A stretch of 64,000 bases of DNA from Verrucomicrobia bacterium LW23 (GTDB lineage Bacteria; Verrucomicrobiota; Verrucomicrobiia; Methylacidiphilales; UBA1321), in the NCBI GenBank assembly GCA_003054695.1, contig QAZA01000016.1, forward strand, positions 62,001-126,000. The letters run 5' to 3'. A program made the position numbers and the translations under genes. The notes under the pieces are model-generated. The model saw nothing but the letters and a program-made list of their open reading frames with translations. It made no database searches and was not told where the DNA came from. The first letter of the stretch is position 1. Every line of letters starts with the position of its first letter. Positions 4,792 through 55,363 of the stretch are shown here, one piece after another.

Positions 4792-5504
4792 AAAGAAACC
4801 ACCGCTACCGCGTGACTCCGCGTCAGCAAAAGACGTACCGCATCCTCCTGGCCGCCGCATGCCGGGTGACCGGCTGGGATCCCGGCGACGACGAGGAGCG
4901 CCTGGCCATGCACGAGCGCGTCATCCGCCGCCGCGTGGGCACCAGCGAGATGACCAACGACGAGCTGACCCAGGTGATGGACCACCTCAAGGCCCTGGCC
5001 AGCCCCAACGACCTCAGCGCCCAGGTGGAGGACGTGCGCCACCGCGAAGATCCGCACTACGCCCGGCGCAAGCAGTGCATCCACAGCATTGAGGCCATGG
5101 CCAACGCCCTTGCCGCCATGCTCGTCAATGTCCGCGACGCCAACGCCTACATCCGCAGCATCGCCCGCGACACGCACGGCACGCGCGACTGGCGATCGCT
5201 CCCCCTGGACGCCCCCGTCCACTACGGCCGCCGCAACCGAAACGAGGCCTGGGAATGTGACCTGCAAACCCTCCGCAAAACCGTTGCAGAACGCTTGCAG
5301 GATGTCCTCAGTGCCATCAAAGGCACCGGCCGCCGTGCGCCCCGCACCGATATTGTCGAAGGGAACCCCCTGGGCCTCGTCCTCTCCCGCAACGGCCGCC
5401 CCATCAGCAATACCGAGATCATCCGCGACCAGATCATCCACCCGAAAGCCCCCGCCCCGGTCACGGCTCCTGAGGCGGTCATCCCCGTCCATGCAACGCC
5501 ATGA
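4788..5504 (+). CDS. DUF1018 / Mu gp16 (GemA-like) regulatory protein
   Basis: The first 70 residues (TPRQQKTYRILLAAACRVTG, then an acidic turn, an arginine-rich helix and MTNDELTQVMDHLKAL) fit the DUF1018 pattern of Mu gp16 and related GemA-like proteins, which in Mu-type phages act in early-to-middle control and modulate host gene expression and DNA topology. The rest of the 238 residues holds a helical region with histidines and a C-terminal half of unknown function. It overlaps both neighbours by 4 bp (ATGA), so it is translated as part of the same operon. Confidence 0.7.
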   Translation: MKRNHRYRVTPRQQKTYRILLAAACRVTGWDPGDDEERLAMHERVIRRRVGTSEMTNDELTQVMDHLKALASPNDLSAQVEDVRHREDPHYARRKQCIHSIEAMANALAAMLVNVRDANAYIRSIARDTHGTRDWRSLPLDAPVHYGRRNRNEAWECDLQTLRKTVAERLQDVLSAIKGTGRRAPRTDIVEGNPLGLVLSRNGRPISNTEIIRDQIIHPKAPAPVTAPEAVIPVHATP

Positions 5505-6475
5505 AAATCCACATCACCATCGAATGCAAAGGCCTCGCCAAGTTACTCGGAGCCCGCAGTTTGGGCCGCCTGCTGCGATCGGCGCGAAAGGTGCGGAAGG
5601 CCCGCAAGTCCCGGCTGTCCCCATCCCCGACCCCGGCCCAGGCCAGCTGGGAGAATGCTGTCCAGGTAGCATCCCACGCCGTTGAGCAGGCGGCAGAAGT
5701 GCATGCGGTTCCGGAGAAACTGGAAGAGCAGCCGCCATCTGTGGCCGTTGAGTCAGTGGCACCTGAGCCGCCTCTCCTCCGTACCCGTGCCCCTGGTGGC
5801 GCCAAGGAGATTGCCCGAGCCCTTGGCGTCAGCGTCCATTCCGTCTACGGTGCATTCGGAGGGCTCGCGCAGATCAGCGAAGCGTTGAGGCAGAAGATCC
5901 TGATTGAAGCCGCACGTATCGGCTGGAAAGGCCCTGCCCGCGCAGCCTCGGCCCCTGCCGAGCCCGAAGGGGAAGCCAAGTCAGAGGAAACGCCGCCCGA
6001 AAAGGAGGAACCCGACCCGGCCCCTCCGGTTGCTGAGGTTCCTGTCCCACCTGCGAGCGAAGACCTTGCCCATGTCGAACGCGGCGGCATGGCAAACCCC
6101 CGCCAGGCCGTGGCTGCTGCAGCGGAGCGCCGCGGCCTCACCAGCTCGTTCAAACAACCCTTTAAGCTGGCAATGGCCACCCCACGCCCAAGGCCACGCT
6201 CGTCCTGGGGCCGGGAAAGCGGCCCGCTTTCCCCGGACTTGCCAGCCTCAGCCAACCCCCGCCCCACCCAGCAGGATCTGGTCAACTACATCTCTGGCGC
6301 TGGCGGCCCCTGCGTCGAAAAATCAATCGTCGCCGACTTCGAGGCCTACGCCGAGGAGCTCGGCCAGCCCAGGGAGGCCGTCGCCGGCCGCGTACGGAAC
6401 ATCCTCGCCGGCGGCAATGGTTTATTTGAGCGCGACACCTCCCACCCAGGCGCCTGGCGCCTCCGCACCCGATGA
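5501..6475 (+). CDS. Phage protein with an internal LacI-type HTH (324 aa)
   Basis: Residues 1-45 are very basic. Residues 100-143 (AKEIARALGVSVHSVYGAF, then QISEALRQKILIEAARIGW) match the LacI-family HTH plus hinge pattern, where the family has xxIAxxxGVSxxTVSRxLN and ISxxTRxxVxxAAxxLGY. There is no sugar-binding domain. A Pro/Glu-rich linker (about 145-200) follows, and residues 258-324 form a small alpha/beta region ending in a likely winged-helix wing (GLFERDTSHPGAWRL). A sequence-specific DNA-binding role, perhaps as regulator or end-binding factor of the element, is inferred. It overlaps both neighbouring genes by 4 bp. Confidence 0.55.
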   Translation: MKIHITIECKGLAKLLGARSLGRLLRSARKVRKARKSRLSPSPTPAQASWENAVQVASHAVEQAAEVHAVPEKLEEQPPSVAVESVAPEPPLLRTRAPGGAKEIARALGVSVHSVYGAFGGLAQISEALRQKILIEAARIGWKGPARAASAPAEPEGEAKSEETPPEKEEPDPAPPVAEVPVPPASEDLAHVERGGMANPRQAVAAAAERRGLTSSFKQPFKLAMATPRPRPRSSWGRESGPLSPDLPASANPRPTQQDLVNYISGAGGPCVEKSIVADFEAYAEELGQPREAVAGRVRNILAGGNGLFERDTSHPGAWRLRTR

Positions 6476-37234: not shown

Positions 37235-37560
37235 TAGTAGATACGCCAGGCCCCGTACGAGAGCCACAGCACATAAAAAAAGATCGCAATCAGCACCACC
37301 GCCGTAATGACCCACATGGGGTGCAGCTGCTGCTTCTTCGGCACGCCGCCGTCTTTGCCATCGCCAAACTCGTTGTCCCGAAAGTCGTCGTAGTTGAAGG
37401 GTGCGTCGCCCGCTTCCGCATAGTCATCCGCCTCGTCCAGCCAGCCGGTATTTTCGTCGGAACCACAATAGGGACAAGCCTTTGCGCCGCGCGGCACGTC
37501 CTCGCCGCACTGCGGGCAATCGCCGGGCGGGCGGAAGCTGGAGCGCCGTTTTGTGCTCAT
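37234..37560 (-). CDS. Zinc-ribbon protein with C-terminal membrane anchor (108 aa)
   Basis: Residues 15-33 read [19 protein letters not shown], a two-CXXC zinc ribbon. An acidic middle (about 38-72) is followed by one membrane helix ([20 protein letters not shown]). The protein would display the ribbon in the cytoplasm from a tail anchor. Its ATG overlaps the stop of the upstream histidine kinase gene by 4 bp, indicating translational coupling and perhaps a shared function. The family is unnamed. Confidence 0.7.
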
Positions 37561-38732
37561 GGCGCGGCCTCGCTGCCCGGTGCGATGCCGGGGGTTTCAA
37601 CAGTCCCCTCCCCCGTCGCCGCCAGGGGCAGCCACAGGAGAAAGGTGGTGCCGACGCCCAACTCCGTCTCAAAGGTGATGGAGCCGCCGTGCGCCTCAAT
37701 AATGGTTTTGCAGATGGCCATGCCAAGCCCGGTGCCGGTGCGTTTGCCGTAGGTGACGAAGGGCTCGAAGAGGGTGGCGCGGATCTTCTCGGGGATGCCC
37801 GGGCCGTTGTCGCTCAGCGTTACCAGCAGCCATCCGTCGTCGCGTTTTTCGGTGCGGATCTCCACGCGCCCGGCGCGGCCGTCGAGCGCCTCCACGGCGT
37901 TGGTCATCAGGTTTTGCAGCACGCGCATCACGCGGCCGGCGTCGATGCTGACCAGGGCGTCGGCTGCCTCGATGTGCAGCTCGCAGTCGGCGCGCGCGGC
38001 GTAGTCGGCGTTGAGGCTCTCGAAGCTGGCCAGGAACTCGCTGATGTGCACGAGCTTGCAGTCCAGGCTGGAGGCGCCGCCTTTGCTGTAGTCCAGCAGC
38101 TCCTGCGCCATGGAGACCATGCGCTCGGTCTGCTGGGCGATGAGTTTGCAGTATTTGCTGGTGACGGCATCCGCGCCGTGCTTCATGCCAATCAGCTCCG
38201 CCGCCAGCTGGATGCCGGTGATCGGGTTCTTGAAGTCGTGGATGATGGTGCCGGCCATTTCTCCGACAATTTGCAGCTTCTCTTTATGCAGCACGGCTTC
38301 TATATAGCGGTCGTTGGTGCTGCGCAGGTGGCCGAGAATGCGTTTGAAGATATGCACGCACACGGTGCCGGACTCGGAGTTGAGCACCTCCATAAACGGC
38401 CCGCCGGGGATGCACAGGACGCGGGACTCGCCCGGGGAAACGGCGCCGGTGCTGCGGCCGTGGCCGTCCAGCACGCCTACCTCTCCAAAGTACTCGCCGG
38501 CCTTCATGCGCGCCAGCACCTCGGTGGGGCCGGAGTGGTCGCCGTTGGTGTCGACATCGGCTTTGATCAGCTCCACTTCGCCGTCCAGCATCAGGTAGAT
38601 GCAGTCGGCGGGGTCCCCTTCGTTAAACAGCACGGTGCCGGGGGGCAACACACGTGTGCGGGCGGCGGCAAGCAGCCGCTCTGCCGCCGAGGTCTGGATT
38701 CCGGTAAAGAAGGGGTGCGACCTGGGTTCCAT
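37557..38732 (-). CDS. Soluble histidine kinase with N-terminal cNMP-binding domain
   Basis: About 391 residues. Residues 10-140 form a Crp-type cyclic-nucleotide-binding domain ([20 protein letters not shown], then [11 protein letters not shown]); the phosphate-binding cassette [11 protein letters not shown] is unusual. The dimerisation helix contains [19 protein letters not shown] with the probable phosphoacceptor His in HDFKNP. The ATPase has N-box [18 protein letters not shown] and [17 protein letters not shown]. It is predicted to be cytoplasmic. There is no response regulator beside it; the downstream overlapping gene is a zinc-ribbon membrane protein. The ATG at 38732 gives a compact start. 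Confidence 0.85.
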
Positions 38733-38936
38733 GCAAGGTGTGGGGCCGTGGGGGCCCGGCTGGGGTGTGCGGGCAGAGTACATCACGCCACGCGCAATTG
38801 CTATGGCAATTTGCTTTTACAATCGCCGCAATTCACGCCAGACTGTTCCTTCGTCCCTCGCGCCGCGGCCTTGCTAAATCCGGGCTCGGGCGGGGCATTC
38901 TTCTCGGTTTCTTTATTCTACCAGAGTATTCTTACT

Positions 38937-39774: not shown

Positions 39775-41979
39775 TTACGCGCTGCCCACGTGCAGGATTT
39801 TGTCCAGGGCGCCGCGGACGTTGCGGAAGTCTTCTTCCAGCACGGGGATCTGTTGGGTGGCGACTTCTTCCTGGCCTTCCTCGGCCAGAGACTGAATGCG
39901 GCGGGCGGTGTCGTACATTTGCTCAGCGCCCAGGCTGAGGCAGCTGCCTTGCACGGCGGTGGCGGCTTCGGCCAGGCGCACGGGGCTGCGCTCGCGGGCG
40001 GCGGCGTGGAGGATCTCCATGCGGCGCGCCTGCTCCAGGCAAAAGAGTTCCACGACTTGCCGCACCAGGTTCACGTCCGAGCTGGCGCCGGGCTGGCGCA
40101 GGCGGGAGATGGCCTCCGGGTTGATGACGCGGCTGGCGACGGCGGGCGGGCGAATTTCGGCCTCCCAGCGGGCGGCGGCGTTGCGGGCGGGGATGCGCTC
40201 AGCGGCGCGGCGCAGCACGGAGGTGATGCGATCGATGCGGATGGGCTTGGTGATGAAGTCATCCATACCGGCCTCAAAGCAGCGCGCCTGCTCGGCGTCG
40301 GTGCTGTTGGCGGTAACGGCGATGATGTACGGGCGGGGCCACGGTGCGCGGGCGCGGATGCGGCGCGTTACTTCGTGGCCGTCGATGTCGGGCATCTGCA
40401 CGTCCATCAGAATGACGTCGTAGGCGTCCTTCTCGCTCATCGCCAGCGCGGCCTCGCCGCCGTCCGCCAGGGCGCACTCCATGCCTACCAGGCGCAGCAT
40501 GTGCAGGATAAGCTTCTGATTCACCGGATAGTCCTCCACCACAAGCACTTTCATCGGCTTGAGGGCGGGGCCTTCCTTGCCGGTCGCAACGCCGCTGCCG
40601 GCAAGGGCACCGGGGATGTCGATGGGGCTCTCGCCCGCCCAGCCGCGCGCGGGCACGGCGCTGCCGGGTTGCGGCAGCAGGTAGGGCAGCACGCAGATGA
40701 AGGTGGAGCCGCGGCCCTCGATGCTTTCGGCCCAGATGTCGCCGCCCATCAGCTGGCACAGGCGCCGGCAGATGGCCAGGCCGAGTCCGGTGCCGCCAAA
40801 GCGGCGCGTTACGGAGCTGTCCACCTGTTGAAAGGAGGTGAACAGGCGAGGCAGTTTATCCGCCGGGATGCCGATGCCCGAGTCCTCCACGGCAATCTCC
40901 ACCACGGTGCTGGCAATGCCGACCGACTGCGGGGGTGCGGGCGCCACGTCGGGGCGATTGCGGCGCAGGCGCTCCCAGTCGCCGGCACGGACGCTTACCG
41001 TGACGGCCCCTTCGCCGGTAAACTTGACGGCGTTGCTGACGAGGTTGACGACCACCTGGCGCAGGCGCGTCATATCGCCAATGACGGTGGCCGGCAGCGT
41101 CTCCTCCAGGTTGATGTTCAGCTCCAGCTTTTTCTCGGAGGCGCGGGGGCGGAGCAGCTCGCAGGCATCCTGAACGGCCTGGCCCAGCTCAAAGGGCGCG
41201 GCCTCAATCTTCATGCCGCCGGCTTCGATCTTCGAGAAGTCGAGGATGTCGTTAATGATCATCAGCAGCAGGTCCGCCGATGAATTGATCAGGCGCACGT
41301 ACTCGCTCTGATCCGTATCCAACTGCGTGCCCTGCAGCAAGTTAGCAAAGCCGACCACGCCGTTGAGCGGGGTGCGGATCTCATGGCTCATCATCGCAAA
41401 AAACTCGGACTTGGCGCGGGTGGCCTCCTCCAGCTTCTGGTTCAGGGCCAGGAGTGTGGTGTTACTGTCCTGCAACTGCCGCTGGCTTTCGCGCAGGGCG
41501 GCCATGGCCTGATCGCGCTGCAGCTGGCCCAGGTAGGCGCGGCTGTGGTAGCGCACGCGGGCCAACATTTCCAGGCGGTCAGGTAGCTTTACCAGGTAGT
41601 CGTTGGCGCCGGCGGCAAAAGCGCGGGCTTTTACCTCGGCGTCCTCCTGCACGCTCAGCACAATAATGGGGATGCCGGAAGTTACGGGATCCTGTCGGTA
41701 GGCGTGGACAAGGTCGAGACCGTCGACGGCGGGCATTACCAGATCCTGCAGGATCACCGTAGGCTTGATGCGGCGCGCCACCTGCACGGCGTTCTCGCCA
41801 TCCTGACAGTAATGGAAATTGATGTCGCCTTCGTCCTGAAAGACGCGGCGCACCAGTTCGCCCACCATCGCCTGGTCGTCCACAAGCATCACCATCATCA
41901 TTTGCCGGGCGCCGCTGTACGCGGGCGTGGCTCCGCCCCAGGCTCGGCTGTCGATGGGAGGTGGAGGCTGGTAAGACAT
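39775..41979 (-). CDS. WspR-like receiver fused to hybrid histidine kinase, degenerate HPT
   Basis: A 734-residue cytoplasmic protein. Residues 27-150 are a receiver ([17 protein letters not shown], phosphoacceptor Asp79 in VILQDLVMP, then [20 protein letters not shown] and RYHSRAYL) that strikingly resembles the receiver of the diguanylate cyclase WspR. A coiled coil follows, then a HisKA domain with His199 ([12 protein letters not shown]), an ATPase ([26 protein letters not shown]) and a second receiver (about 465-585, [13 protein letters not shown]). The last 100 residues look like an HPT domain, but the motif is AATAVQGSC with Thr674 where the phosphorylated His should be. It follows cheB by 205 bp. 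Confidence 0.88.
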
Positions 41980-42184
41980 AAGAGGAATTAAAGATGAAGG
42001 CGCGAGGTTAGGGTTAACCGTTTCTTATATATCGGGACTGGCTCCGATTTCTAGAGATATAAATGAGAAGATCAGGGTTGCCCGTCCAATCTTCATTAAA
42101 AAGTGATTCCATTCATGCAGAACTTTGAAGTAGTTATGCCTACAAGTTTAATGAATCATTTATATGGATAAAGCGCTCCTGCCT

Positions 42185-43609
42185 TTACATCCCCCTGCCG
42201 CCGGCAAGACCTGAAAATTCATGGATTCGCATGGGGATGTCGGTGAGCGGCAGCACCTCCGCCGCAGCGCCCATGTCCGCCGCAGCCTTGGGCATGCCGT
42301 ACACGGCGCTGGACGACCTGTCCTGCGCGATGGTGGGGTAGCCCAGGCCGCGCAGGCCCTTCAGCCCCACGGCGCCGTCGCGGCCCATGCCGGTGAGGAT
42401 GATGCCGAGGATCTCCCCCTTCCAGTAGCGGGCGGCGCTGTTCATAAACGCATCCACGGAGGGCCGGTAGGGGGAGGAGCGGGGCTCGGGCGTGTAGCCG
42501 AGGGTGCTGGGCGAGGTCATGACGAGGTGGTCGTCGGAGCCTGCAACCCAGACTATACCAGGTCGCATCACACTTGTCTCGCACGCAATTTTGACCTGCA
42601 TGTAACTGTAGCGCTGCAGCCAGTCCGCCAGGCCGTGGGAGAACTCCTGGCTGATGTGCTGAATCACCACCACGCAGGCCGGCAGATCCTTGGGCAGGCG
42701 CTTGAGTACCACGCTCAACGCGGCAGGCCCGCCGGCCGAGGCGCCGATGATGACAAGCCGCGATGCCATGCGATCCTTCGACGAGCCCGGCAGGGGCGGC
42801 GGGCCAAAGTAGACCTGGGGCGCCCCCCCGGCAGGCGGCGGCAGATGGACCGGCGCGGTTGGCCGTCGCAGGTTAAGGCGCAGCGAGCCCGTCTGCTTAA
42901 GCCCGGCCGGGATGACTGTGCCGCCCGCTGGCAGCGGGCGCCCCGGCGGTGCTGTAATGCCCGTGGAGGCGGGCGTAGGCGCAACGGCAGGGGTGCTGGA
43001 CACCTTGGGGGGCAGCAGAAAGGCCATCGTCTCCACCTTCATCAAAAAGGCGGCGCGCCCCGGCTCGTCGTCCATGCGCGGGGTGCGCACCACATCGAGG
43101 GCGCCGGCGTCCAGCGCCTGAAAAATCATGTCGCTGCGGCTGTCCAGCGAGCTGGTGACGATAAGGATGCTGCACGGACACGCCTGCATGATCTGCCGTG
43201 TCGCCTCCACCCCGTCCATTACGGGCATCTCCAGATCCATCAGCACCAGGTCCGGCCGGCGGGCGCTGCAGTACTCCACCGCCTGCCGGCCATCGGCGGC
43301 GGACCAGATGATCTGGAACTTTCCGGTGGGCTCCAGCACGCGGCGCAGCATCACCAGCGCCATCGACATATCGTTGACAAGCCCGACCGTAAAGCGATCG
43401 CGCCGCGCCGCCTGCATGGATTGCGTGGAGGTTTGCCCCGTGCCCACCGGCGCGGCGCCAATGCGGCCGGCGCCCTGCGCGCTTCCCTGCCCGGCTCCGG
43501 TCGCCCCCCCGCGCCCTGTGGAGGCGGCCGCGCCGAAGTTGCCGAGGGGGCCGGGCCGGCGGGGCTCCTGCGGCGGCTGCGGGGGATGGTTGGGCGGCGG
43601 CGGGCTCAT
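42185..43609 (-). CDS. cheB: Chemotaxis-type methylesterase CheB (WspF-like)
   Basis: A 474-residue protein. The first 70 residues are a Pro/Gly-rich extension. The receiver (about 74-195) has phosphoacceptor Asp125 in LVLMDLEMPVMDG, and its acidic pocket reads VGLVND, with Asn79 in place of the first Asp. A linker follows, then the esterase with the catalytic triad Ser291 (GASAGGP), His318 (VIQHIS) and Asp411 (TGMGRDGA). It removes methyl groups from receptor glutamates in response to phosphorylation by CheA. Its ATG overlaps the cheA stop by 4 bp. No cheR or receptor gene is in the window. Confidence 0.9.
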   Translation of the reverse strand: MSPPPPNHPPQPPQEPRRPGPLGNFGAAASTGRGGATGAGQGSAQGAGRIGAAPVGTGQTSTQSMQAARRDRFTVGLVNDMSMALVMLRRVLEPTGKFQIIWSAADGRQAVEYCSARRPDLVLMDLEMPVMDGVEATRQIMQACPCSILIVTSSLDSRSDMIFQALDAGALDVVRTPRMDDEPGRAAFLMKVETMAFLLPPKVSSTPAVAPTPASTGITAPPGRPLPAGGTVIPAGLKQTGSLRLNLRRPTAPVHLPPPAGGAPQVYFGPPPLPGSSKDRMASRLVIIGASAGGPAALSVVLKRLPKDLPACVVVIQHISQEFSHGLADWLQRYSYMQVKIACETSVMRPGIVWVAGSDDHLVMTSPSTLGYTPEPRSSPYRPSVDAFMNSAARYWKGEILGIILTGMGRDGAVGLKGLRGLGYPTIAQDRSSSAVYGMPKAAADMGAAAEVLPLTDIPMRIHEFSGLAGGRGM

Positions 43610-46311
43610 ACGGAGGCTCCTTCCGGCACAGCGGGGCCGATCAGGTTAAGCACAGCTTCCAGAAGCTTGGCGTCCTCAAAATGGCTTTTGGCCAGGTAGT
43701 AGTCGGCCCCGGCTTGCAGGCCGCGATTGCGATCGGCCTCGCTATCCTTGTAGGAGACAATCATGACGGGCAGCTGGCTGAGGCGGGCGTTGTTTTTGAT
43801 AAGCGTGGTAAGCTCGATTCCGTCCATACGCGGCATGTCAACGTCCGTAAGCACCATATCAAACTTCTTGTCGCGCAACAGGTTAAATCCTTCCTGACCA
43901 TCCACGGCGGTCTCCACCTCATAGCCGGCGCCGGCCAGCACCTTGCGCTCCAGCTCCCGCACCGTCAGGGAGTCATCAACGACGAGGAGGCGGCGGCGGC
44001 GAGGGCCGGCGGGTTGCTGCAGCTGCTGCTGAGCCTGCAGCGCGGGCGTGTGCGGCAGGGCGGGGCGCGCCTTCCCGTGCTCGCCCGGGCGCACCGGCGT
44101 GGCGGCGGCGCTGTGTTGCTGAAGCCGGCTCCAGCGGCCGCTGTCCAGCATCCGCGCCACGGAGCGCGCCATGTCCTCCACGTCGAGGATGAGGACAGGA
44201 TTGCCGTCGTCAAGCACGGCGGCGGACTGGATATGGGGGATCTTGCCCAATTGCCGGTGCAGCGGCTGCACCACAAGCTCGCGATCCCCCACAAACTTGT
44301 CCACCGCAATGGCATACGTCGCGTCATCGTACTCAAAGATGACGACTTGCAGGGTGCCTACATCCTTCAGGTATGCAGGCCGATCCTTGCCGAGCAGCTC
44401 CCACGACCCCAGGATGGCGACCGAGCGCTTTTCCCACGTGAAGCAGGGGCGCCCCTCGACAAACATTACGTGGTCGGGCTCCAGCCGGTAGGTGTGGCGG
44501 ATGCGGCTGAGCGGCAACGCGTAAGGTTCCTCGGCAATCTCCACCACCAGCGAGCGCACGACGCTGAGCGCCAGCGGCAGCTTCAGGTCGAACCGGGCGC
44601 CCTGGCCGGGCTCGCTGGTAACGCGCACCTCGCCGCGCAATTGCCGCAGCATGTGCTGGACGACGTCGAGGCCAACGCCGCGGCCGCTGAACTCGCTGAC
44701 GTGATCGCGCAGGGTAAAGCCGGGCAGAAAGAGAAAGTGCAGAAGCTCCTGCGACGTAAGCCTTTCCGCCGTAGCAGCATTGGCCAGGCCGCGCTGCAGC
44801 ACCACGGCGCGGATGTGCTCGGTATCGATGCCCTTGCCGTCGTCGGTAAAGGATACGATGAGCTTGCCGGCGGCGTGCCGGGCCTCCAGCCGCAGCAGCC
44901 CCACGGCCGGCTTGCCGGAGCGGGCGCGCTCGCTGGGGAACTCGATGCCGTGATCGAGCGAGTTGCGGATCATGTGCGTAAGCGGCGCCTCCAGTTGGTC
45001 CAGAATATCGCGGTCCACCTCCGTTGCCTTGCCGGAGATTTCCAGTCGCGCCTCCTTGCCCAGCGTGGCGGCCAGATCGCGCACCATGCGGGGAAAATGC
45101 TGCACGCCATCCACAAACGGCCGCATGCGGCACGCCTGCGCGCGGCGATAGAGCCGGTGCGAGAGATCGACGGCTTCGCGATCGTAGCGGTCGAGATCGC
45201 CCAGCCGGCCGACCAGGAACTCCTGGCTCTCCTCGGCCTTCATGCGCGCCTCGTGCAGATAGTGCTGCGTGCGTTCGTCCAGCGCCTCGCCGCGGGCGCG
45301 ATCGAGCAGCTGAATGACCTGGCGCTGCATGCGCTTGAGGCGCCGCATATCGTCCGCCAGCGAGTGCAGGCGCCGCGCGTTGACCAGCGACTGGCCGCTG
45401 AGCCCCAGCAGGCGGTCCAGATGCTCCGCCGTAACGCGCAGCATGCGGCCGGCTTCCTCGCCAGTGGCCGGCTTTGCGGCGGCGTCGCCCGGCACGGCGT
45501 TGATGTGCGTGGCGGGCCGCGCCCGGCCGGCGGAGCCCTGCGGGGCGCGCTGCGGCGCAGGGGCGGGCGCATGCGCGGGGTCGACCGGTGCGGCCTCGGC
45601 GGAAATCGGCTCGGCGGGCACGGGCTCGGCGTCGCAACCGGCGCTAACCTCGGCCTCCGGCGCAGGAACTGGCTCGGGCTTGGGCTCGGCGGCGGCTGCG
45701 GGGGCGGCGGAAGCCGGGGTCTCTACGGGCGGCGGCGTGGCCTCGCGCGGGGCGGGATTGGCCAGAAATGCTTCGCACTCCGCCACATAGGCGCTCACGA
45801 TTTGCGCGCGCTCCGTGCCGGCGGCTGCCCACTGCGTCACGTCGGCCTCGGGCGTGCGGGCGATGGCGACGAGGATATCCTTGCCGCGCAGCATCAGATC
45901 AATAAACGCGCGCGAGGCAAAAACGCGGCCATCCTGCCCGGCCACAAAGCAATTTTCCATGGCGTGCGCCACCTGCACGGCGGCGCCGATGTTGACCATG
46001 CGGGCGGCGCCTTTCACGGAGTGCGCGGCGCGCATCAGCGAGCGCCACTCCTGGGCCAGCACCTGGGCGGCGGCCTCCCCGGCCTCGTCGGCCTCGGCGT
46101 GTGCGGCGCGCAGCGCGTCATCGGGCCTCTCCCCTGCGGCGGCCAGGGCATCGGCGGCGGCGGCCACGCGTTCCTCCACGGCGGCAAGCTCCGCCTCGCG
46201 GCGCTCCACCTCCACAAGGCCGTTCTCCATACGCGTTGCATTGTCCTCCACTTCGGTCTTGAAAAGATCGAACATGGAGAAGTCCTGCAGTTGCTCGTAG
46301 TGGAGGCTCAC
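43606..46311 (-). CDS. CheA-receiver hybrid kinase (WspE-like)
   Basis: A 901-residue CheA-type kinase. HPT domain with His97 in RAAHSVKGAARM; an Ala/Pro-rich linker (about 185-290); a dimerisation region; an ATPase with HMIRNSLDHGIE, DDGKGID and SGRGVGLDVV; a CheW-like domain (about 600-740); and a C-terminal receiver (about 775-895, phosphoacceptor Asp823 in MVLTDVDMPRMDG). This order matches WspE and FrzE-type proteins. The start is GTG 46311, which fits the family N-terminus; ATG 46275 is an alternative. It is the first gene of the cheA-cheB pair and shares the cluster with a CheW gene. Confidence 0.9.
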   Translation of the reverse strand: MSLHYEQLQDFSMFDLFKTEVEDNATRMENGLVEVERREAELAAVEERVAAAADALAAAGERPDDALRAAHAEADEAGEAAAQVLAQEWRSLMRAAHSVKGAARMVNIGAAVQVAHAMENCFVAGQDGRVFASRAFIDLMLRGKDILVAIARTPEADVTQWAAAGTERAQIVSAYVAECEAFLANPAPREATPPPVETPASAAPAAAAEPKPEPVPAPEAEVSAGCDAEPVPAEPISAEAAPVDPAHAPAPAPQRAPQGSAGRARPATHINAVPGDAAAKPATGEEAGRMLRVTAEHLDRLLGLSGQSLVNARRLHSLADDMRRLKRMQRQVIQLLDRARGEALDERTQHYLHEARMKAEESQEFLVGRLGDLDRYDREAVDLSHRLYRRAQACRMRPFVDGVQHFPRMVRDLAATLGKEARLEISGKATEVDRDILDQLEAPLTHMIRNSLDHGIEFPSERARSGKPAVGLLRLEARHAAGKLIVSFTDDGKGIDTEHIRAVVLQRGLANAATAERLTSQELLHFLFLPGFTLRDHVSEFSGRGVGLDVVQHMLRQLRGEVRVTSEPGQGARFDLKLPLALSVVRSLVVEIAEEPYALPLSRIRHTYRLEPDHVMFVEGRPCFTWEKRSVAILGSWELLGKDRPAYLKDVGTLQVVIFEYDDATYAIAVDKFVGDRELVVQPLHRQLGKIPHIQSAAVLDDGNPVLILDVEDMARSVARMLDSGRWSRLQQHSAAATPVRPGEHGKARPALPHTPALQAQQQLQQPAGPRRRRLLVVDDSLTVRELERKVLAGAGYEVETAVDGQEGFNLLRDKKFDMVLTDVDMPRMDGIELTTLIKNNARLSQLPVMIVSYKDSEADRNRGLQAGADYYLAKSHFEDAKLLEAVLNLIGPAVPEGASV

Positions 46312-46693
46312 GGCGTCTCAGGGCGCCGCCGTCTGAGGCAGGCGGCGGTCGGGTGGGGCTGGTTTCAATAAAGTGTGGTCCACGTCCGTAGCGACGCTTC
46401 CCTTGTTTCAGCAACCTACTGTCTGGCGGGGCATTAAGGAATCATAAAAAGCGCAATCCCTTCTACACACACGTGTGCACCGAGTTTTACTTATAAAAAC
46501 ACCGGCACGATACATCATTCAATACCGTTCAGTAAAATGTTTTGTTTAAAACGCTATCATTTTCCCTCTGGCGTTCATCTCCTGCGCAGCTTGGATGCAG
46601 AGATTACACATACCTTTACCCTATTGACAGCTCCAAATTGCTCGAATTCGTAAGGAACGGCGCCTCCCGGCTCTTCCGGCGCCGCTGCGCGGC
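46312..46693. other. 382-bp spacer between cheW and cheA
   Basis: AT-rich from 46435 to 46620, so likely to contain a promoter for cheA-cheB. A perfect palindrome CACACGTGTG lies at 46468-46477 and could be an operator. GGCGCC repeats at about 46659-46683 can form a hairpin at the end of the cheW gene. No coding region is supported. Confidence 0.4.
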
Positions 46694-47377
46694 TCACGTC
46701 ACGGCCACCGCGTGCATCAGCGCTTTATACAGCGTATCGCGCTCCAGCACGCGCACGACGGTCCGGCGCCAGGTCCACAGCCCCTCCACCAGCGATTCCC
46801 CGCCGGCGGCGGGGGGCGGGGACTGGACGGCATCCTCCTCGCAGGGATGCACGCCGCCCACTTCGTCGACGGGAAACGCGACGCGCATTTCTCCCGGATC
46901 GATAACCAGCAGGCGGTGGATGTGCCCGGGCTGCAAGGGGTGCGACGCCGGCCCTGCGCCGCCCGGGTAGAGCAACGGCTGCAGGGTTACGCATATCTCC
47001 ACGGTGCCACGGATGTTGACCACGCCAATGACGACCGAGCCCGGCCTGCCGCTGGGGAGCGAGTGCACGCGGGCGCCGTCGACGGCCTCCACAAAGCACT
47101 CGCCCGCAAGCGCAAACCATTCCGGCCCAAGTCGAAACACCAGCAGCTTGCGCAGGCCGGCGCCCCGCTCCGCGGGCGGGGCGGCCAGGCGCTGGGTCAT
47201 GGCGTCCAGGTACTCGTCGTCAATCGGCTGCGCCAGCAGCTCGTTGACGGCCGGCCTGCGCGGGGCCGGAGGCGCGAGCGCCGTCACGGCAATATCGGCC
47301 CCGCCCGGCACAGCCGAGCGCGGCGAAGGTAGTGATCCGTCGGTGCTGTCAGTATGCATAGACAAGAAGTTCCCCAT
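46694..47377 (-). CDS. CheW-like coupling protein
   Basis: A 227-residue protein. Residues 1-75 are variable. The CheW domain spans about 76-225: LRKLLVFRLGPEWFALAGEC, then VIGVVNIRGTVEICVTLQPL and RLLVIDPGEMRVAFPVDEVG. CheW domains link chemoreceptors to CheA. The longer N-terminal extension differs from minimal CheW. An alternative start is the ATG seven codons further in. It lies 382 bp upstream of cheA on the same strand and belongs to the same chemosensory cluster. Confidence 0.85.
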   Translation of the reverse strand: MGNFLSMHTDSTDGSLPSPRSAVPGGADIAVTALAPPAPRRPAVNELLAQPIDDEYLDAMTQRLAAPPAERGAGLRKLLVFRLGPEWFALAGECFVEAVDGARVHSLPSGRPGSVVIGVVNIRGTVEICVTLQPLLYPGGAGPASHPLQPGHIHRLLVIDPGEMRVAFPVDEVGGVHPCEEDAVQSPPPAAGGESLVEGLWTWRRTVVRVLERDTLYKALMHAVAVT

Positions 47378-53659: not shown

Positions 53660-55363
53660 ATGGACGCTTCCTCCCTACATGCCCTCCAGGCGCGATACAA
53701 GGCGCTGATTACGGCGTCGCGCGCCCTTTTCTCCGTCAGTACACTGGATGACATTGTCGAGCAGATCCTCCGTCACTCCCGCGAAATGATGGCGGCCGAG
53801 GCGTGCTCCATGTTCCTTCCGGACGAGCGCGCCAGGGAACTCATCCTCTACTCCGCCCGCGGCGCCCGGGACAGCGTGCACACGCTGCGCATTCCGTGGG
53901 ACAAAGGGATCGCCGGCACCTGCTTTCAGACAAAAGAGGCGGTGCGCATTGACGACGTGCAGAACGACCCGCGCTTTTTTCGCGGCGCGGACGTCAAGTC
54001 CGGCTTTGTAACGCGGGCCATGCTGTGCATGCCGCTTATCGACAAGAACGACTGCCTTGGCGTCATCCAGGCCATCAACCCCACGCAGGGCGCCTTTTTC
54101 AGCGATCTGGACCAGGAGATATTCGAGGGCCTCGCTTCCATCGTCACCAGCGCGCTGCTGCGGCTGGAGCGCGAGCGCAAGGCGGCCGAGGAAGCCAAGC
54201 TGGCGCGCGAGCTGCAGCTGGCGCACGAGATCCAGACATCCTTTCTGCCGCCGCGCGTGGTAACGGCGCCGCTGGCGGAGATCCGCGTGAAGTACCAGCC
54301 CGCGCGCGTTATCGGCGGCGATTTTTACTCCGCGCTCTCCATGCCGGGCAACCGCATCCTTATGGCCACGGGCGATGTCTCGGGCAAAGGCATACCGGCG
54401 GCGCTTACCACGGCACAGATTACCGGGGAGATCTCCGCCCTGGGCAGCGTGGCGCAGGCCAGCCTTAGCGAGTTTGTGCGTCTGCTGAACAAGGGGCTGT
54501 GCGGGCGGCTGGCCTACGGGCGCTTCGTCGCCACCAGTTTTTTGCTGTACGATCCCAACGCCGGTACCATGGAGGTGCTGTGCGCCGGGCAGTTCCCTCC
54601 GTGGCGATGGAAGCCCGACGAGTGGGAGATCATCAAAGTGCCGCCCAGCCTGCCGATGGGTATCTCGCCGGATTACCCCTACGAGGCGGTAACCTACCCG
54701 TGCGCGCCCGGCGAGAAATGGCTGCTCTTTAGCGACGGCATTAACGAAGGCCGCAGCCCGGTAACGGGCGACGACTACGGCTTTGACCGCCTGCGCGCCA
54801 GCCTCCCCTCGTCCGGCGCGGAGCTTATCCTCGGCGCAGCGTGGAACGCGTGGAGCGGCTACGTGGACATCAACGCGCTGCACGACGACGCCTGCATGTG
54901 CATCCTCAGCTCGCTGCCTCCCGCCGAGCTGTGCGTCAACTCCCAGCGCAGCAACAGCAAGCGCGTGCGGCAGTATGTCGAGAGCTGGACCGAAGCGGCC
55001 GGCTACAATGACAAAATGCGAGGCCAGATTGTGCTGGCCACGGACGAAGCGTTTACCAACATCCTGCGCCACACCTATCTTAATGAGGAAGGCAAGGACG
55101 TCACCGTCACCGCCCGCATTGAGGAGGACGAGTTCGTCATCCAACTGCGCGACTTCGGCCCGCAAATCGACAAGGAAAAGCTTAAAGGCCGCAGCCTGGA
55201 AGACATCAAACCCGGTGGCCTTGGCCTGCACCTGCTCAACGTCACGTTCGACACCGTGAACTTCGAAAGCGCCGAGCCCGGGACGCTGCTGAGCCTGCGC
55301 AAAAAGCTCCCCCAGCCACCCGCCGCCGGTGAGGAAACGGCCGCGCCGGCGACGACGGAGTAG
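53660..55363 (+). CDS. GAF-PP2C phosphatase-RsbW-like kinase fusion
   Basis: A 567-residue three-domain signalling protein. A GAF domain (about 10-165) with PWDKGIAGTCFQTKEAVRID and LCMPLIDKNDCLGVIQAINP is followed by a coiled coil; a SpoIIE/PP2C phosphatase (about 200-390) with RVIGGDFYSALSMPGNRILM, MATGDVSGKGIPAAL and WLLFSDGINEGRSPVTG; and a C-terminal HATPase_c (about 425-555) of the RsbW type with LATDEAFTNILRH and PGGLGLHLLN. This combines a phosphatase and an anti-sigma kinase domain of a partner-switching system in one chain. No STAS protein or sigma factor gene lies nearby. Confidence 0.88.
   Translation: MDASSLHALQARYKALITASRALFSVSTLDDIVEQILRHSREMMAAEACSMFLPDERARELILYSARGARDSVHTLRIPWDKGIAGTCFQTKEAVRIDDVQNDPRFFRGADVKSGFVTRAMLCMPLIDKNDCLGVIQAINPTQGAFFSDLDQEIFEGLASIVTSALLRLERERKAAEEAKLARELQLAHEIQTSFLPPRVVTAPLAEIRVKYQPARVIGGDFYSALSMPGNRILMATGDVSGKGIPAALTTAQITGEISALGSVAQASLSEFVRLLNKGLCGRLAYGRFVATSFLLYDPNAGTMEVLCAGQFPPWRWKPDEWEIIKVPPSLPMGISPDYPYEAVTYPCAPGEKWLLFSDGINEGRSPVTGDDYGFDRLRASLPSSGAELILGAAWNAWSGYVDINALHDDACMCILSSLPPAELCVNSQRSNSKRVRQYVESWTEAAGYNDKMRGQIVLATDEAFTNILRHTYLNEEGKDVTVTARIEEDEFVIQLRDFGPQIDKEKLKGRSLEDIKPGGLGLHLLNVTFDTVNFESAEPGTLLSLRKKLPQPPAAGEETAAPATTE

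Follow-up and report, generated by a model that had tools for sequence, protein, structure and literature searches.

Wsp is the textbook c-di-GMP surface-sensing system. In Pseudomonas it consists of WspA to WspF and the response regulator WspR, whose receiver is followed by a GGDEF domain, and it has been described as exclusive to the beta- and gammaproteobacteria (PMC8552884). A variant is known from Burkholderia cenocepacia (wspHRR), where the Wsp cluster encodes WspH, whose WspR-type receiver is followed by a histidine kinase instead of the GGDEF domain (PMC8552884; PMC4324302). Burkholderia wsp mutants were changed in biofilm with unchanged c-di-GMP, and WspH acts without altering c-di-GMP (PMC8552884). 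According to the same paper, no H-system has a 3' regulator, and there is one system per genome (PMC8552884). It has also been stated in print that R-type and H-type Wsp never occur in one genome. In the Che3 system of Rhodospirillum centenum (CheA3-CheS3-CheY3), a CheA-receiver hybrid controls a second histidine kinase via its N-terminal receiver: CheA3 phosphorylates this receiver in CheS3 and turns the kinase off (PMC3868531). CheR-TPR or alternative-cellular-functions clusters generally contain multi-domain regulators, in which receivers are combined with kinase, PP2C, GGDEF, or further output domains (PMC3447774); this is a broad class, whereas the Wsp subset considered here is defined by one receiver type and one stalk.

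We analyzed a stretch of 64,000 nucleotides from Verrucomicrobia bacterium LW23, referred to below as the window. Four intact ORFs, all on the minus strand, occupy positions 39775-47377, and the Pfam assignments of all four proteins exceed the curated cut-offs. The first gene (46694..47377) encodes a WspD-type CheW coupling protein with a Pfam CheW domain. It best matches (E 1e-24 to 1e-20) those CheW proteins of Wsp clusters whose genes sit between the genes for CheR and CheA, but it is without the N-terminal Cys motif (CWNRIGV..HCRNCPVY) found in other WspD proteins. After a gap of 382 bases follows the gene for a WspE-type CheA-receiver hybrid (43606..46311; Hpt-HATPase-CheW-receiver) with the Hpt residue His97, intact N and G boxes in the HATPase domain, a CheW-like domain, and Asp823 in the C-terminal receiver. 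It overlaps by 4 bases with the gene for a WspF-type CheB (42185..43609; receiver-CheB methylesterase, assigned by Pfam and NCBIfam), which starts its receiver with a WspF-like VNDM, carries Asp125 there, and keeps the catalytic residues Ser291, His318, and Asp411. The output protein, a hybrid kinase, is encoded at 39775..41979. In the 205-base gap that separates it from cheB (41980..42184), no terminator-like site was found and the promoter/terminator scan was nowhere above chance; cheB and the kinase gene may be co-transcribed despite this gap. The preliminary description of this locus had placed CheW, CheA-receiver, CheB, and a kinase with a WspR-like receiver on one strand, which the ORFs and Pfam confirm, and the receptor and CheR outside the window, which was borne out as well. 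About 1 kb downstream of the cluster, a cyclic-nucleotide-binding HisKA-HATPase kinase is encoded on the same strand (37557-38786), with a cyclophilin gene on the opposite strand in between. Further away, the protein encoded at positions 53660-55363 resembles, by eye, GAF-PP2C with an anti-sigma-type ATPase at its C-terminus and might be a partner-switching regulator.

The first receiver of the output protein (REC1) is of the WspR type. In a search against the PDB, it matched the WspR structures 3BRE and 3I5A with 194 and 186 bits (64% and 62% identity), compared to 62 bits for the best non-WspR receiver, and residues 27-173 are 64% identical to Pseudomonas aeruginosa WspR over 147 residues. 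This likeness is far above chance. The receiver tree places all 70 WspR-type receivers in one clade, apart from 38 others (support 100; branch of 3 changes per column), and the single row labeled as general within this clade is a duplicate of a receiver from contig 56 of the same genome. The receiver thus falls with WspR rather than among general receivers, as had been proposed from the letters alone, and the kinase protein contains every motif quoted in support ([29 protein letters not shown], RYHSR). Only one more WspR-type receiver is encoded in the genome, 51% identical to REC1, and neither of the two is fused to GGDEF. We found three GGDEF proteins in the genome, none with a WspR-type receiver, so that a WspR-type GGDEF protein is absent from both operon and genome, in agreement with the preliminary description. 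CheA and CheB of the window likewise group with Wsp CheA and CheB. By these receiver and CheA/CheB characters, the window cluster would belong to Wsp; a surface-sensing role is putative.

The output protein contains the WspR-type receiver (27-150; Asp79), HisKA (His199), HATPase, a second receiver (REC2; 476-591; Asp526), and an Hpt-fold domain. REC1 keeps Asp34, Asp35, Asp79, Ser109, and Lys131, and every catalytic or phosphoryl-site residue of CheA, CheB, REC1, HisKA, HATPase, and REC2 is retained. The domain chain of the preliminary description is therefore present, but its proposed relay into the HPT is not: Thr674 stands at the position of the phosphoryl-accepting His (ATAVQGS from residue 673), which is present in Pedosphaera-type relatives (AHALKS). 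The fold itself is kept (helices 633-733 in the AlphaFold model). With this substitution, the Hpt domain is degenerate and cannot accept phosphate, and the relay must exit via REC2 or from His199 directly to another protein. The output protein extends the WspR stalk (QRD.A..ALRESQ.QL..N) by ..[25 protein letters not shown]. AlphaFold places the receiver end, stalk, and HisKA in a single unbroken helix of 82 residues (135-216; monomer model, pTM 0.46, with a pLDDT of ~75-80 in the HisKA stretch).

We then compared 128 WspR-type response regulators from public genomes, from the window's order and phylum, and from plasmid and megaplasmid records, typing neighbors and outputs by profile HMMs. The 75 proteobacterial loci comprise 72 GGDEF proteins and three WspH. 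Among the ~50 loci from Verrucomicrobiota, 22 end in hybrid kinases (two of these rows, L065 and L183, represent one organism, Luteolibacter pohnpeiensis), 26 in SpoIIE/PP2C phosphatases (PF07228 was confirmed on two), four in others, and none in GGDEF. The full order of MCP, CheR, CheA-receiver, CheB, and response regulator recurs in many Verrucomicrobiota clusters across the phylum, in agreement with the expectation of a conserved gene order. The SpoIIE/PP2C output, which also occupies this slot in a second cluster of the same genome, lay beyond the view of the preliminary description. Some loci fall outside these types. An Acidobacteriota Wsp cluster (L062 5037-5879) encodes a WspR-type receiver with a short Cys-containing C-terminus (CSYCKRIR) that has no Pfam match and shares its stalk extension with the kinase form. 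At L151 (9429-11228), a WspR-type receiver is fused to parts that resemble, by eye, a PAS region and a NarX-like (HisKA_3-type) kinase, with a separate receiver protein encoded downstream; this is a further output type within the window's family. Plasmid plas1 of Burkholderia stagnalis YJ-2 carries a full R-type GGDEF cluster and an H-type WspH cluster (L211, L224), which, on one replicon, runs against the published claim that the two types never share a genome. Records of B. cenocepacia and B. multivorans have both receiver types too.

All 22 hybrid kinases, including the window protein, have a linker of 53 residues between the receiver anchor (AR.RYH) and the HisKA His. One receiver-kinase (L209) has 46 residues there and WspH has 18, and each of these three lengths equals 4 modulo 7. 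GGDEF linkers are 37 throughout (four rows missed by the pattern were read as 37 by eye), and PP2C linkers are either 37 (n = 20) or 30 (n = 6). Receiver-to-output linker lengths therefore vary by multiples of seven residues only. The same seven-residue steps, together with a register-shift mechanism, have been published for Rec-GGDEF proteins (PMC8041772). In the present set, kinase and phosphatase outputs of one receiver type follow these steps as well.

A concatenated tree of CheA, CheB, and receiver unites the PP2C clusters in one clade (support 99-100) and places the GGDEF clusters at one end, with WspH among the Burkholderiales. In this tree, the window cluster has a long branch, and the hybrid-kinase clusters are scattered; their monophyly on these proteins was rejected (p-AU 0.0004). 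For their kinase domains, by contrast, one common origin was not rejected (p-AU 0.50). This combination fits either an ancestral hybrid kinase with two later replacements or the transfer of a receiver-kinase gene from one Wsp cluster to another, in a tree whose root is insecure.

Candidate genes for the parts missing from the window cluster are present elsewhere in the genome; a search for WspA and WspC genes in flanking contigs had been suggested. Contig 50 encodes a WspA-like receptor (4HB_MCP_1, HAMP, MCPsignal) and contig 56 a wspB-wspC-like pair (~400-402 kb). The same contig holds a second Wsp core at ~449-456 kb (L047 5150-12284), consisting of a WspD-type CheW, CheA-receiver, CheB, and a WspR-type receiver-SpoIIE/PP2C protein; neither MCP nor CheR was found in this core. 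Among complete clusters that we sampled, the sensors of GGDEF and kinase systems are 4HB, TarH, CHASE3, or of no named type, and those of PP2C systems are Cache. In reciprocal BLAST, receptors from GGDEF, WspH, and hybrid-kinase clusters find their best match in the contig 50 receptor, and most full-length receptors from PP2C clusters find theirs in a Cache_3-Cache_2 receptor encoded on contig 45. Based on sensor types and best matches, we predict that the window cluster works with the contig 50 receptor and the PP2C cluster of contig 56 with the contig 45 receptor, with one wspB-wspC pair for both. Receptor and CheR functions of the window cluster are thus probably supplied from dispersed genes. 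Prepilin-like genes (N_methyl motif) adjoin both the orphan WspA-like receptor (L255 7687-8601) and the contig 56 core (L047 11787-12284), and pilus-like structures are possibly linked to surface sensing. Flagellin gave no match in the genome, and flagellar taxis is therefore unlikely. One kinase match occurs with identical scores on contigs 9 (143355-144545) and 10 (4964-6154), as would be expected if this stretch is duplicated or the two contigs overlap in the assembly.

The window cluster shares with Pseudomonas Wsp the WspR-type receiver and stalk, the WspE-type CheA-receiver, the WspF-type CheB, the WspD-type CheW, the 3' position of the response regulator gene, and the adjacency of the WspE-type and WspF-type genes. 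It differs in its phylum, in the absence of WspA, WspB, and WspC from the cluster, and in having HisKA-HATPase-receiver-(degenerate Hpt) instead of GGDEF. We consider it probable, with fair confidence, that it represents a chemosensory core of the Wsp type in which a hybrid histidine kinase serves as the terminal response regulator. In the most likely working, by analogy with R. centenum and Burkholderia, the WspA-like four-helix-bundle receptor would control the CheA-receiver via the WspD-type CheW. CheA would autophosphorylate at His97 and pass phosphate to Asp79 of the WspR-type receiver as well as to CheB for adaptation. Phosphorylated REC1 would then alter a dimeric coiled coil running unbroken from the last receiver helix into the HisKA helix, which may switch the kinase activity (His199) on or off, and the kinase phosphate would move to its own receiver (Asp526) and from there to a separate, unlinked protein. 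Beside the kinase genes, no consistently linked downstream response regulator was found.

That a kinase takes the place of WspR had been claimed for this locus before. The substitution itself stands, a hybrid kinase with no GGDEF, but it is not unique, since WspH is a precedent (PMC8552884; PMC4324302). That the window kinase is the orthologue of WspH is nevertheless hardly credible. Each protein combines a WspR-type receiver with a histidine kinase and is encoded in a Wsp cluster, but WspH is a receiver-kinase only, without stalk extension, second receiver, or Hpt, its linker is 35 residues shorter, and its gene lies 5' of wspA, whereas the window form keeps the WspR stalk and its gene lies 3' of cheB. 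The WspH kinase domain is extremely distant (branch ~10) and of another lineage, no tree joining it to the window kinase domain to the exclusion of other hybrid kinases was seen, and the WspH cluster groups with GGDEF-type Burkholderiales clusters. Anatomy, gene position, and kinase tree thus reject orthology. Nor does an ordinary alternative-cellular-functions cluster with a generic receiver-kinase regulator and no particular Wsp kinship seem at all probable. Receivers with kinase, PP2C, GGDEF, and further outputs do occur in such clusters (PMC3447774), and another chemosensory cluster with a generic receiver exists on contig 17 of this genome (L048 2569-13697: CheW, CheR-TPR, CheW, MCP, CheA-receiver, CheB, receiver-kinase-receiver). 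But the position of REC1 inside the WspR clade largely refutes this reading, and the window has a WspF-type CheB receiver and a WspD-type CheW, whereas the CheB receiver of contig 17 is canonical. With its generic output receiver and a place far outside in the tree, the complete contig 17 cluster was also rejected as a Wsp operon.

Some hybrid kinases phosphorylate their attached receivers. As the kinase is complete, it could conceivably be a sensor that phosphorylates its own first receiver while CheA feeds only CheB. We regard this reverse flow as very improbable, since an N-terminal receiver cognate to a neighboring CheA is the WspR arrangement, and since the N-terminal receiver of R. centenum CheS3, a receiver-receiver-PAS-HWE kinase, was phosphorylated by CheA3 and not by CheS3 (PMC3868531). 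Somewhat more weight, though still a low probability, is due to a decaying paralogue whose receptor, wspB, and wspC are gone and whose kinase no longer signals. Because no MCP or CheR is linked, the CheW Cys motif and the Hpt His are lost, and the branch is long, the window copy could indeed be specialized or partly decayed. However, all four reading frames are open, the catalytic and phosphoryl-site residues outside the Hpt are all kept, the 53-residue linker is retained exactly, and candidate partners are present in the genome.

A kinase for WspR (WspH) and varied outputs of CheR-TPR clusters in general (PMC3447774) were already known. As far as the literature searched shows, the occurrence of Wsp cores in Verrucomicrobiota, hybrid kinases and PP2C as 3' outputs of a WspR receiver, a register conserved across outputs, and two Wsp cores with differing outputs in one genome are new. 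The Verrucomicrobiota cores, the 3' kinase, and the two cores in one genome disagree with the published statements on the distribution of Wsp, on H-systems, and on one system per genome (PMC8552884). Tentatively, and at somewhat less than even probability, the Wsp core may be an old receiver-plus-coiled-coil socket with exchangeable outputs in a fixed helical register. The hybrid kinase would then perhaps be the older output, with GGDEF in Proteobacteria and PP2C in Verrucomicrobiota as later replacements, and the kinase and PP2C cores of this genome would share one wspB-wspC pair and be fed by two orphan receptors, one four-helix-bundle and one Cache. One sensory machine is wired to at least three outputs: GGDEF, hybrid kinase, and protein phosphatase. 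The Wsp receiver, kinase, and methylesterase occur widely among Verrucomicrobiota, where no locus of our sample ends in GGDEF, and therefore sensing is separable from output. This natural series of output swaps with a conserved helix register offers a test bed for how receivers drive different enzymes, and it reopens the origin of Wsp.
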